Shown here piece after piece: positions 31,416 to 44,150 of a stretch of DNA of 64,000 bases. A program made the translations under genes and the position numbers. Numbering within the stretch: the first letter of the stretch is position 1; the number at the start of each line of letters is the position of its first letter. The stretch lies in the NCBI GenBank assembly GCA_003279115.1, contig QCBG01000006.1:1-64000 (forward strand). The letters are read 5' to 3'. The notes under the pieces were generated by a model, which saw nothing but the letters and a program-made list of their open reading frames with translations, was not told the origin of the DNA and did no database searches. This DNA comes from Prochlorococcus sp. AG-347-E03 (lineage in GTDB: Bacteria; Cyanobacteriota; Cyanobacteriia; PCC-6307; Cyanobiaceae).

Positions 31416-31448
31416 AGTGCAACACTTGTATTGTGCAAGTGTGACACT
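31416..31448 (+). promoter_or_regulatory. palindromic operator-like site upstream of RHH-like gene
   Basis: Arms AGTGCAACACTTG (31416-31428) and CAAGTGTGACACT (31436-31448) are inverted repeats with two mismatches around a 7-nt centre. The site lies 15 nt before the ATG of a putative ribbon-helix-helix protein. Such proteins often repress their own genes through palindromes; this is inference. Confidence 0.6.
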
Positions 31449-31450
31449 AA
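31439..31450 (+). repeat. 12-bp inverted repeat, left copy
   Basis: GTGTGACACTAA. Its exact reverse complement lies at 31827-31838, directly after the stop of the gene at 31464. Confidence 0.75.
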
Positions 31451-31463
31451 TTTTTATTTAATT

Positions 31464-31826
31464 ATGCCCTCTCCGAGGAAAAGAATTGGTTTTTTGCCAA
31501 GTGAAGAAGTTCATGAAATTATTGAAAAATTGTGCACAGCTAATGAATATAGTCAGTCAAAAGTCACAGGTTTATTGGTCGAAGAAGCATTGAGGTCTCG
31601 AGGAGTATTAAATGAAACTTTTGGTCCGGATTCAAATATAAAAAATGATTTTATCAATTTTTCCTTTGTAAAAGAAACATTCTCTAAAGATAAATTCCCA
31701 GTTAATGGGGAAGAATTTAAAATTAATAAAAAAGTATTATCTGATGATATCAAAATGATTCATGAATTTATTGAGTTTAAGTTTTTTAAGGAAGTAATGA
31801 AGCAAAATAATAATCTTTTTGAATAG
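31464..31826 (+). CDS. putative ribbon-helix-helix DNA-binding protein (120 aa)
   Basis: The start is taken at ATG 31464, giving MPSPRKRIGFLPSEEVHEII. The N-terminal 50 residues have the RHH pattern: a short basic strand (RKRIGFLP), helix EEVHEIIEKLCTANEYS, a turn, and helix QSKVTGLLVEEALRSRG. The C-terminal 70 residues are charged and unassigned. A longer frame from TTG 31431 would place the operator-like palindrome inside the gene, so it is disfavoured. The gene is bracketed by 12-bp inverted repeats. Confidence 0.65.
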   Translation: MPSPRKRIGFLPSEEVHEIIEKLCTANEYSQSKVTGLLVEEALRSRGVLNETFGPDSNIKNDFINFSFVKETFSKDKFPVNGEEFKINKKVLSDDIKMIHEFIEFKFFKEVMKQNNNLFE

Positions 31827-36571: not shown

Positions 36572-38093
36572 GCTTATTTATGATTGGAGTGGGTTTAGGA
36601 AGAATAGAGTCACTTATTAATAATCCCCAACTTAATTGTTGTTCCCAAGTAATATCTTCACTGTATATAGAGCCAAGTTGTTCATTTATTTTTGAAGATA
36701 ATTCTGGCAATAAAGGTAGTAATAATAAGCCTATTATTCGGGTGCTTTCTAATACGTTGTAAATAATTTCTTGAACAAGAGTCAAATTATCTTTTTCTTT
36801 TATTAACATCCATGGTTGATTATCATTTAAATACAAATTTGTATTAATTGCTAGGCTAAGTACTTCGTTGGCAGCTAGATCTAATTTGTAGATATTAAAA
36901 TTATGAATATAGTTTTCAACTGCAATTTTGGCATAATTCTCTAATTTATTATCACTTGAAATTTTTTTATTATTTGGCACTTTATTATCGAACCATTTTC
37001 TAGACATAGATGATGTTCTATTTAGCAAATTACCAATTGTATTGGCTAAGTCATTATTGATAATGTCAACAAATCTTTTATCTTGAAAATCTCCATCATT
37101 TCCTAGTGATATATCTTTAATAAGAAACCACCTTACAGGATCATTGCCATATTTTGAAAGCAAAATGTCAGGGTCGAGTACATTTCCTAAGCTTTTACCC
37201 ATTTTTTGTCCCTCTCTAGTGAGAAACCCATGTCCTAAAACTTTTTTGGGAACTTTCATATCAGCAGAAATGAGCATTGCAGGCCAATAGACAGCATGAA
37301 ATCTCAGTATGTCTTTACCTATTAAATGAATATCAGCTGGCCATCCTCCATTAATTGATTTTTCCAATGAATGATCTTTTGCATCAGAACTAATAGCACT
37401 TACATATCCAAGTAAAGCATCAAACCATACGTAGAAGGTGTGATTGTCGTGGCCAGGAACAGGAATTCCCCATGAGACATTTGTTCTTGAAATTGAAAAA
37501 TCCTTTAAACCTCTAGAGACAAAATTTATAATTTCATTCCTTCTTTCTATTGGTTCTATAAAAGATGGTTCGTTGATTATTTTCTCAATTTCTTTTTGAT
37601 ATTTCGAAAGCCTAAAAAAGAGATTCTTTTCATTTTTCCATTCTAGTTGTTTTTGATGTATTGGACACTTATATGTTGTTGAGTTTTCTGGATTATCTTT
37701 AAATTCTTCACAACCGACACAATACCAACCTTTTTGTACTCCCATATAGATATCATCAGATGCTTTTACTCTTTCATAAAATTCATTAACAACCAACTCA
37801 TGATTTTTTGAAGATGTCCTTATGAATTTATCGAAAGATATATCCCAATCCTTCCAATTAATTTTAAAAATTTCTGAGATTTCATTGCAATGTTCTTTTG
37901 GTTCAATACCCTTTTCATTTGCAGTTCTTTGTATTTTTAAACCATGTTCATCAACACCTGTGATGAAAATAACATCTTCACCTTTAAGCCTTTTATACCT
38001 AGCTATGGAGTCACAAATTATTGTTGTGTATACACTTCCTAAATGAGGTTTATCATTTACATAATATAAAGGGGTAGTAATGATAAAACTCAT
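36549..38093 (-). CDS. metG: methionyl-tRNA synthetase
   Basis: MetG charges methionine onto tRNA-Met. The 514-residue protein has YVNDKPHLGSVYTT (HIGH equivalent), one zinc knuckle (CVGCEEF ... CPIHQ), GQKMGKSLGNVLDP (KMSKS) and the anticodon-binding helical domain. There is no C-terminal EMAP-like extension, as is usual in cyanobacteria. It follows the RNB nuclease gene by 69 nt. Its cognate tRNA gene is at 33.7 kb. Confidence 0.97.
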   Translation of the reverse strand: MSFIITTPLYYVNDKPHLGSVYTTIICDSIARYKRLKGEDVIFITGVDEHGLKIQRTANEKGIEPKEHCNEISEIFKINWKDWDISFDKFIRTSSKNHELVVNEFYERVKASDDIYMGVQKGWYCVGCEEFKDNPENSTTYKCPIHQKQLEWKNEKNLFFRLSKYQKEIEKIINEPSFIEPIERRNEIINFVSRGLKDFSISRTNVSWGIPVPGHDNHTFYVWFDALLGYVSAISSDAKDHSLEKSINGGWPADIHLIGKDILRFHAVYWPAMLISADMKVPKKVLGHGFLTREGQKMGKSLGNVLDPDILLSKYGNDPVRWFLIKDISLGNDGDFQDKRFVDIINNDLANTIGNLLNRTSSMSRKWFDNKVPNNKKISSDNKLENYAKIAVENYIHNFNIYKLDLAANEVLSLAINTNLYLNDNQPWMLIKEKDNLTLVQEIIYNVLESTRIIGLLLLPLLPELSSKINEQLGSIYSEDITWEQQLSWGLLISDSILPKPTPIINKLDYDQHL

Positions 38094-42367: not shown

Positions 42368-42388
42368 TTGTATTGATATTCTTATCTA

Positions 42389-42425
42389 AGACTAATTATA
42401 AGTCTATATATAATTCTCATATAAG
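42389..42425 (+). promoter_or_regulatory. AGACT/AGTCT promoter module, copy 1
   Basis: AGACT (42389-42393), 7 nt, AGTCT (42401-42405), 14 nt, TATAAG (42420-42425). The expected start point is about 42432 and the 82-aa gene begins at 42473. It shares unit, period and spacing with copies 2 and 3. Confidence 0.6.
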
Positions 42426-42472
42426 ATAAGCAATAATCCTATAAAATTGATTAATGTTGTATTATAGAGTTC

Positions 42473-42721
42473 ATGATTAATTTTCTTTCCCTATTGATAT
42501 CTTCGGTGCTGTGGGTCCAAGTTCCCCAGTGGGCAGATGATTGGTCAAAATGTTCTATTGATGTGCCTGACGCTTCATGCCATTGGTACATAACTGCACC
42601 TGATAATACATTTGGGGAGGGGTTTGATTGGGCTAATGCACCATGGTTTGATGCCAATGGATTAAGAGATGTTCCTAGCATTGATAAGCAAACTGCTATT
42701 CAAAAGCTCCAATCTAAGTAG
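42473..42721 (+). CDS. small exported Trp-rich hypothetical protein (82 aa)
   Basis: An N-terminal hydrophobic segment (INFLSLLISSVLWV) looks like a signal peptide. The mature part is acidic with two cysteines (SKCSIDVPDASCHW) and several tryptophans (WADDW, FDWANAPWF), perhaps a small disulfide-bonded extracytoplasmic domain. No family is recognised. G+C content is visibly higher than in its neighbours. It is driven by promoter module 1 and followed by a hairpin. An antisense frame is considered a shadow. Confidence 0.65.
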   Translation: MINFLSLLISSVLWVQVPQWADDWSKCSIDVPDASCHWYITAPDNTFGEGFDWANAPWFDANGLRDVPSIDKQTAIQKLQSK

Positions 42722-42742
42722 TACTGTCTTTAAGGCAGTACT
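42720..42742 (+). terminator. hairpin at the end of the 82-aa gene
   Basis: AGTACTG (42720-42726) pairs with CAGTACT (42736-42742) around TCTTTAAGG. It overlaps the stop codon. There is no T-run, so termination is uncertain; it could protect the mRNA 3' end. Confidence 0.45.
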
Positions 42743-43139
42743 TACGCTCATAAAAGTAGCTCATAGCAATACTTTCTAGCCCTTATTAATTCCTTGGACA
42801 TTGAAAGGACATAATTTATTGATCTGTTATTCAATTTTTAATTTTTCCCAGGCATAAAGCAGTTTGGATATGATTTATTCAAATCGATTAAATTAATTAT
42901 CTTACTAATCTGTTTTGAGACTACATAATAGACTAATAATAAGTCTCATTTAAGAAGTACTATACACTAAATTTTTATTATTTAAAATTAATTTTATCTT
43001 AATTTCATTTATACATAATTTTGTTTTCATAAATTTGAATAAAAATAATTGATTAAAATTAGAAATTTTAAACTTAACAGCTATCTAATATGAGACTATT
43101 AATTAGACTTATTATTAGACTTATTTGAGAATTGCTATA
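42743..43139. other. intergenic region with two promoter modules, no protein gene seen
   Basis: About 400 nt between the 82-aa gene and the convergent RHH-DnaJ gene. It holds promoter modules 2 and 3. I found no ORF above about 20 codons that looks coding. The stretch after module 2 (42973-43090) is almost pure A+T and could be a leader or small RNA. Confidence 0.6.
42918..42966 (+). promoter_or_regulatory. AGACT/AGTCT promoter module, copy 2
   Basis: AGACT (42918-42922), AGACT (42930-42934) and AGTCT (42942-42946) at an exact 12-bp period. Then 14 nt and TATACA (42961-42966). No gene lies immediately downstream on the plus strand. Confidence 0.6.
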
Positions 43140-43141
43140 CT
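43093..43141 (+). promoter_or_regulatory. AGACT promoter module, copy 3
   Basis: AGACT at 43093, 43105 and 43117 (12-bp period), 14 nt, then TATACT (43136-43141). It points into the 3' end of the minus-strand RHH-DnaJ gene, so a transcript would be antisense to it. Confidence 0.6.
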
Positions 43142-44150
43142 AATCTCTATATAGATTTTTTAGCAATTGATACGCTTCATTTAATTTTCTCATTTGATCT
43201 GTTGATCCTCCAGCATCTGGATGTGTCTCTAAGGCTATTGATTTATAGGACTCCCTAATTTTACGGAATGTATGAGCTGATCCTGCTGATGTTGATAAAT
43301 TCAATAATTTAAGTGCACCATGTACTGTCATTGTTGAGTCCAAAGTTTCAAATGAATTTGATCTATTATTTCGCTTAAATCTACTTACAAACCTTCTCAT
43401 AAGTGTTGGTATTCTATTTATCAGATCTGATGTAGCAAAAGGGTCTTCTAAAACGCCAATCATTAATAAAACAATTTCAAGGGATGGATTTTTCTTTATC
43501 CAAAATGGGCATAATTCTGACATTAATTTATTGGCTGCACTCCAAGTAAAGGGTAGATTTTCAGTTCCATCAAGATTTGGCCATATATCCCTTTCAAACC
43601 AATCCATTGAAGCTTCTACTACATGGTCATTAGGAACTGATCCATATAAGGTTTTCCAATGACTAATTAACTCAATTCGACATTTTATTAATTCAGTTTC
43701 TTTGATTGTATTAATTTGAATATCATTAATATTCTCCTTTAATTTTTCACTATTAATACTTCTTCTTAGATTCTTTACTTTTTTTTCAACAAAATTGGGA
43801 AGGCTTATATTTGAGTTGGCTTTTTCTTTATATTGATTGTTATTTGTAGATCTTTTATTCAAAGATATCTCATTAACTTCTTTTTTTACATCTGATTTAA
43901 TTAATACCAATGCAGTATCTTCATCAATATTTAAATTTTCACTATTATTCTTATCGTTAAAGTCTATTTCTTGCTGTTGGTTCTTAGGTAGTAAATCATC
44001 TTCTTGGAGAAGTTCTTTAAGTATCTTTTCTATTACAGGACCTCTTGCTCTAAATCCCCACTCTTTTCGTAATTGATCAAACCTGGAAATTAGTTCCTCT
44101 GGTAAATCAATTGAAATTCTTTTTGTATTTGAATTTTCAGGAATATTCAA
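43140..44150 (-). CDS. ribbon-helix-helix / DnaJ-domain fusion protein
   Basis: The 336-residue protein starts with an RHH-like unit, KRISIDLPEELISRFDQLRK to IEKILKELLQED (about 10-52). An Asn/Lys-rich linker follows (about 55-140), then a unique helical region with SHWKTLYGSVPNDHVVEASM. A C-terminal J domain contains FRKIRESYKSIALETHPDAG with the HPD motif, then MRKLNEAYQLLKNL. J domains stimulate Hsp70. Joined to a DNA-binding-like head, this suggests a regulator controlled by DnaK or DnaK recruitment to DNA. No Cys-rich DnaJ part. Confidence 0.8.
   Translation of the reverse strand: MNIPENSNTKRISIDLPEELISRFDQLRKEWGFRARGPVIEKILKELLQEDDLLPKNQQQEIDFNDKNNSENLNIDEDTALVLIKSDVKKEVNEISLNKRSTNNNQYKEKANSNISLPNFVEKKVKNLRRSINSEKLKENINDIQINTIKETELIKCRIELISHWKTLYGSVPNDHVVEASMDWFERDIWPNLDGTENLPFTWSAANKLMSELCPFWIKKNPSLEIVLLMIGVLEDPFATSDLINRIPTLMRRFVSRFKRNNRSNSFETLDSTMTVHGALKLLNLSTSAGSAHTFRKIRESYKSIALETHPDAGGSTDQMRKLNEAYQLLKNLYRD

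Follow-up and report, generated by a model that had tools for sequence, protein, structure and literature searches.

The window (the whole 64-kb stretch of Prochlorococcus DNA that was analysed) contains three copies of a repeat array, a small open reading frame (ORF) and a candidate dif-like core between the first two copies, and a gene for a protein with an RHH domain and a J domain, which we refer to as RHH-DnaJ (Table 1).

Table 1. Positions in the window of the arrays, the candidate core and the neighbouring genes.
Feature	Position	Strand	Remarks
Array copy 1	42380..42426	.	Units AGACT 42389, AGTCT 42401, ATTCT 42413; outer TCT/AGA half-sites; profile R1 E 4.4e-11
82-aa ORF	42473..42721	+	Between array 1 and core in HL genomes; matches PHROG 14182 and 1187
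Candidate dif-like core, HL form	42717..42745	.	AGTAGTACTG-TCTTTAAGG-CAGTACTTAC; overlaps stop codon of the 82-aa ORF
GGAC-N8-GGAC conserved direct repeat	42796..42811 (conserved repeat region 42796-42819)	.	12-bp spacing; sequence and conservation
Array copy 2	42909..42955	.	Units 42918, 42930, 42942; R1 E 3.0e-10
Array copy 3	43084..43130	.	Units 43093, 43105, 43117; just past 3' end of RHH-DnaJ gene; R1 E 6.9e-11
RHH-DnaJ protein gene	43140..44150	-	336 aa; RHH N-terminal, J domain C-terminal
RHH domain	44007..44120	-	Residues 11-48; E 0.033 in window member alone, below cut-off
J domain with HPD motif	43155..43271	-	Residues 294-332; 26.6 bits vs cut-off 27.8

The initial annotation described AGACT and AGTCT units with a period of 12 bp, each series standing 14 nt before a TATA string, and likened them to activator sites in the place of a -35 box. 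All the units and TATA strings that it named are present at their positions. The 12-bp period is real, with five AGWCT pairs at this distance in the window against 0.16 expected and none at any other spacing from 6 to 22. Scanning the 64-kb window with the pattern AGWCT-N7-AGWCT-N14-TATA gave three perfect matches (at 42389, 42930 and 43105). With up to two mismatches allowed, 14 matches were found against 3.0 ± 1.8 in shuffled sequences, a number reached in 0 of 100 shuffles, so that the proposed check for chance occurrence, run on the window, places the pattern above chance.

Alignment of both strands of the three copies showed that the array is a 47-bp near-palindrome, TCTNATATRAGACT-N7-AGWCT-N7-AGTCTNATATNAGA, composed of three inner units and outer TCT...AGA half-sites, with ATA placed symmetrically on both flanks. 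The 14-nt distance between array and TATA string held for copies 2 and 3; in copy 1 a third unit (ATTCT) had been overlooked, and its presence puts TATAAG (42420) out of register with the other two copies. TATA is found at the homologous place of copy 1 in none of 21 orthologues, of copy 2 in 13 and of copy 3 in 12. The A at flank position 9 is conserved on both sides of all three copies (21/21 each at the orthologous loci), so that what was taken for a -10 box belongs to a symmetric site and is not directional. The GGAC-N8-GGAC repeat is possibly, and speculatively, a degenerate fourth array.

In a DNA search of 40 genomes the locus was found in 21 of the 25 Prochlorococcus genomes, the source genome included; the other four, each at most 81% complete, gave no match of locus length. 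A weight matrix detected three copies at 20 of the 21 loci and four at one (L013), without indels, with the information residing in the half-site positions and the spacers nearly free. When paired columns were counted, 74% of the cells were paired, as against 75% after shuffling; the spacer columns stayed at chance level and showed no covariation, and a hairpin reading of the arrays was therefore rejected; at Rfam gathering scores a tRNA was the sole match in the window. Among the matches listed in a search of 44 genomes under stricter filters, the strong matches to profile R1 in the HL genomes G000, G015, G022, G134 and G156 were the three copies only, and the others listed there were partial (E 0.005 or weaker).

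The palindromic core

Comparison of palindromes in the same interval of non-HL genomes revealed one shared element in 18 of 18, the 29-bp palindrome TGCRTAMCTGY-N7-RCAGKTAYGCA. A model of this core (R2) matched at the locus in all 37 non-HL genomes among the 40 searched, 19 of which were outside the training set, and gave no match at the locus in the three HL genomes; the sole other match below E 0.05 is a second core copy in G095. In a sample of 194 genomes of the class, searched under stricter filters, 13 genomes matched at E ≤ 0.01; these are all the non-HL members of the family in the sample, and no 29-bp core was detected outside the family at this threshold. The second core of G095 lies near glyQ (chromosome 759,500-774,300; L263, L408) beside a phage-derived island which contains a T7-like RNA polymerase, a 517-aa tyrosine integrase and a relative of the 82-aa gene; its 10-kb stretch holds no arrays.

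Arrays flank the core on both sides in 17 of the 18 non-HL relatives, and in G048 on one side only above threshold. Array matrices found two to four arrays near the core per locus with a lowest score of 21.6, an in-sample value as the matrices were fitted on the same 18 loci; out-of-sample control stretches gave no match in 400 kb and one in 800 kb, none scoring 18 or higher. One extra array is present about 1.5 kb upstream of the RHH-DnaJ gene in L168 (G100, score 24.4), L169 (G170, 23.3) and L170 (G128, 30.3).

A GTACTGTCTTTAAGGCAGTAC-type sequence stands between the arrays in HL genomes. In 81 HL sequences, 22 of the 24 columns of GTACTGCCTTAAAGACAGTACTAC are at least 90% identical, part of which is the ORF stop codon, and the right arm is variable in some strains. 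This HL element shares little sequence with the 29-bp core; to judge only from its place and from CTG-N9-CAG, it may be a diverged counterpart, and this assignment is the weakest link in our argument. An intrinsic terminator was also considered for the core and set aside, as no clear T-run follows.

The RHH-DnaJ gene and the nature of the arrays

The RHH-DnaJ protein of the window, taken alone, is under the Pfam cut-offs for both the RHH and the J domain. Across relatives the assignment is firmer: RHH_1 and DnaJ are both matched by 10 of 10 Prochlorococcus members at E ≤ 1 (best 5.9e-5 and 4.7e-7, respectively), and RHH_1 by 17 of 17 N-termini of the family at E ≤ 0.1 (best 1.7e-6). At E ≤ 0.001 RHH-DnaJ has a match in 124 of 151 family genomes, which in at least two cases (G046 and G053) is no more than weak. 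All 21 family members in the class sample of 194 genomes match RHH-DnaJ, and seven further matches span the J domain only. Searches against solved structures returned only weak RHH matches (NikR, E 0.025; CopG, E 0.28), and an AlphaFold model built on 13 near-identical rows (mean pLDDT 39.6) was too poor and was not used.

RHH dimers bind tandem short units in the MetJ/met box, CopG and ParR/parC systems, and in this respect the arrays would be similar. The predicted RHH strand of the family, [KR][RQK]I[ST]V, is similar to that of MetJ (KRISIDL in RHH-DnaJ, KKITVSI in MetJ), and the MetJ box, AGACGTCT, resembles AGWCT. The locus differs from the MetJ, CopG and ParR systems in its 12-bp unit spacing, its 47-bp palindromic blocks, its place at the terminus and the J domain. 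The core was found in 8 of 8 genomes with the RHH-DnaJ gene and in 0 of 14 genomes in which the match to RHH-DnaJ was lacking (13) or weak (1); core and gene are linked, so that this co-occurrence might reflect absent contigs or a lost locus. From linkage and co-occurrence we infer that RHH-DnaJ is the likeliest binder of the arrays.

The 82-aa ORF is probably incidental cargo. Its product looks secreted, and a paralogue is present elsewhere in the genome (G000:C26) without arrays or core. A second small ORF, at 31431-31826 of the window, appears CopG/RHH-like by eye.

That the arrays are the site of an undescribed DNA-binding protein, as had been suggested, is well supported by conserved half-sites, variable spacers without covariation and the retention of arrays across the family. 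The activator reading is disfavoured by the symmetry of the element, which has ATA on both flanks, by the register of copy 1 and by the lack of other strong copies: among the matches listed for the five HL genomes, none of the strong ones lies outside the locus, whereas the sites of a regulon would recur. A promoter at copy 3 would moreover be directed at the 3' end of the opposing gene, and the arrays of relatives form two-sided clusters around a palindrome. The likeness drawn to PhoB-type boxes, which are directional direct repeats before a -10 box, does not extend to a near-symmetric element with copy 1 out of register. The arrays are real repeats but probably not promoters, and weak promoter activity near them is possible.

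The arrays might still be transcriptional operators through which RHH-DnaJ represses or activates genes of the interval, perhaps including its own. The position of copy 1 upstream of the 82-aa ORF, the TATA strings that follow copy 2 at 14 nt in 13 of the 21 genomes and copy 3 at the same distance in 12, and the extra array upstream of the RHH-DnaJ gene in three genomes would fit this. Against it stand the symmetric flanks and the deviating register of copy 1, and the two-sided clusters persist around the palindrome although the interval genes vary among relatives; we therefore regard an operator function as improbable.

Terminus position and candidate recombination machinery

The gene dnaN was located in 44 of 44 genomes. 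Measured from dnaN, the locus lies at a median of 0.481 of the circle, above 0.45 in 19 of 25 genomes and with a minimum of 0.333; these values are for 25 of the 43 single-contig genomes, four HL genomes being entered as approximate mid-locus values. As pheT is within about 6 kb of the locus in all 44 genomes, it is a syntenic block as a whole that has this chromosomal position. Skew was sampled in five genomes in which the locus is off the antipode (G173, G180, G110, G111 and G093), and in two of these, G173 and G180, a clear flip is found near the locus and not at the antipode. GC skew in G173 stays positive as far as 480 kb and, apart from one stretch at +0.003, is negative from 560 kb onwards, and TA skew crosses zero at 460-480 kb, with the locus at 519 kb and the antipode at 214 kb. 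In G180, TA skew is positive to 1.30 Mb, remains about zero as far as 1.395 Mb and is negative from 1.405 Mb onwards, and GC skew behaves similarly with one exception at 1.44 Mb; the locus is at 1.40 Mb and the antipode at 1.256 Mb. Skew in G110 is broad or ambiguous (positive at 380 kb, near zero and mixed between 0.45 and 1.09 Mb and clearly negative from 1.14 Mb onwards, with the locus at 0.80 Mb and the antipode at 1.205 Mb). It is ambiguous in G111, G093 gave no usable skew, and no flip occurs within the window.

In G015, which we take to be strain MED4, the arrays start at 828,863, 829,325 and 829,565 and the putative HL core at 829,205. According to Mansky et al. (2024, PMC10913375), vesicle DNA of MED4 is enriched at 826,000-832,000 of NC_005072.1, an interval that received 92,377 of 1,368,548 and 186,179 of 2,729,515 mapped reads. 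The authors place this interval within a 100-kb region of wider enrichment that has several peaks; the tallest is at what they term the dif site, whose position was taken from earlier literature. The MED4 arrays and core (828.86-829.61 kb) are inside this 6-kb terminus interval. Terminus enrichment is also stated for Prochlorococcus vesicles in PMC7901474.

A place at the terminus and arrays on either side of a centre would suit a replication fork trap of the Tus/Ter or RTP type. Known fork traps use polar sites; the arrays, near-symmetric and not polar, all lie within about 1 kb of the core, and we consider a fork trap very improbable.

FtsK_SpoIIIE (PF01580) was matched in 0 of 15 genomes, in a search whose control matched 10 of 14 named genomes, which did not include Synechococcus elongatus. 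Phage_integrase was matched in 15 of 15, revealing a divergent tyrosine recombinase. The candidate enzyme, of 389 aa, has a match in 146 of the 194 class genomes, not all of them orthologues, and its best NCBIfam match is of the XerA type but, at 34 bits, far below the cut-off of 220. Its gene is not linked to the core and is far more widespread, so in other cyanobacteria its own target must differ.

Known dif/Xer systems comprise XerCD-FtsK, the single-recombinase systems XerS/difSL and XerH/difH, and archaeal XerA/dif. The core resembles their sites in being 28-29 bp long with inverted arms of about 11 bp around a short centre (in 18 genomes, the HL form being presumably diverged), in normally occurring once per chromosome, at the terminus (37 of 37 non-HL genomes, with the second copy in G095), and in the presence of a tyrosine recombinase that is a candidate for acting on it (15 of 15 genomes). 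It differs from them in its strongly symmetric arms and in the large arrays for another protein on both sides. XerCD-FtsK systems depart further in having FtsK, for which the 15 genomes gave no match; the locus was therefore not assigned to the XerCD-FtsK-dif family, and it may nevertheless work like such a system. The plasmid sites cer and psi also combine a Xer-type core with adjacent accessory sites, there bound by PepA/ArgR, and such sites could control synapsis. Unlike cer and psi, the present locus is at a chromosomal terminus, has accessory sites on both sides and would use a different protein. Kono et al. (2011, PMC3025954) state that dif prediction failed in the five cyanobacteria tried. 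A search of mostly open-access literature returned no description of this terminus site or of the RHH-DnaJ protein.

Viral copies of the core and proposed function

Of three forms of the core arms, the first was found in 3 viral contigs, the second in 50 and the third in 77 (IMG/VR loci L270-L399, 130 in total). Permuted-palindrome controls gave four contigs for the second arm form and none for the third; the first form is without such a control, and its three contigs may be due to chance. With a relaxed pattern, 129 of the 130 contigs carry a single core copy. Contigs with a GC content of 0.5-0.7 have the arm form of GC-rich hosts and those of 0.3-0.4 have the A+T forms. Within the centre only the two terminal positions are constrained (Y and R), which gives an 11+7+11 organization. 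Terminases and a T7-like RNA polymerase are recurrent neighbours, and the best named matches of three representative contigs are cyanophages (38-75% identity). In P-SCSP1u, a phage of MED4, an intergenic site at 36946 has one arm, GACAGTACTAC, identical to the HL host arm and another arm with mismatches; no core was found in MED4-184, MED4-117 or KBS-S-2A. The 17-mer of the HL core occurs in two viral contigs, apparently of one phage, inside a coding gene, and was dropped as a coincidence. No arrays are present within 1.5 kb of any of the 130 viral cores. Viral centres differ from host centres, which argues against simple integration into the host site; conserved arms with free centres suggest that these phages may use the host enzyme for self-resolution.

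A terminus-organizing or anchoring site, similar to MatP/matS or to a centromere, is a further reading, in which the palindrome would be the site of another protein and recombination would be absent. The RHH protein, the arrays and the terminus place agree with it, and MatP likewise binds palindromes in the terminus region by an RHH-type fold. The locus is unlike the MatP/matS system in the J domain of its protein and in being compact: in the five HL genomes the strong R1 matches are confined to one place, whereas matS sites are single, numerous and scattered. The 11+7+11 Xer geometry of the core with its variable centres, and the presence of the core without arrays in viral contigs (0/130), speak against pure anchoring, which we consider unlikely.

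A conserved and nearly unique architecture thus stands near the terminus of genomes of which the 15 searched gave no FtsK match. The explanation to which we give an even chance is that it is a nucleoprotein site of the picocyanobacterial family for recombination or segregation at the terminus of cyanobacteria without detected FtsK. We infer that the core is recombined, with the 389-aa enzyme as the candidate recombinase. Dimers of the adjacent RHH-DnaJ protein would bind the 12-bp-spaced AGWCT units cooperatively and form complexes on either side of the palindrome, to which a single Xer-type tyrosine recombinase would bind and where it would carry out the exchange. The J domain would recruit DnaK, and the flanking complexes together with DnaK would control synapsis or anchor the terminus at division, FtsK being undetected. 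More tentatively, and with doubts outweighing our confidence, we propose a machine of new design in which a J-domain RHH protein on arrays flanking a dif-like site would, together with Hsp70, gate recombination and sister separation, and in which cyanophages would carry the core as a means of having their genomes resolved or integrated by the host enzyme.

With a compact, conserved terminus locus and a linked, putative DNA-binding protein, the ways in which cyanobacteria complete replication, resolve chromosome dimers and part their sister chromosomes become directly testable in highly abundant phototrophs. The locus may also be the reason why vesicle DNA of Prochlorococcus is enriched for the terminus, and the viral cores suggest that cyanophages exploit the same site.
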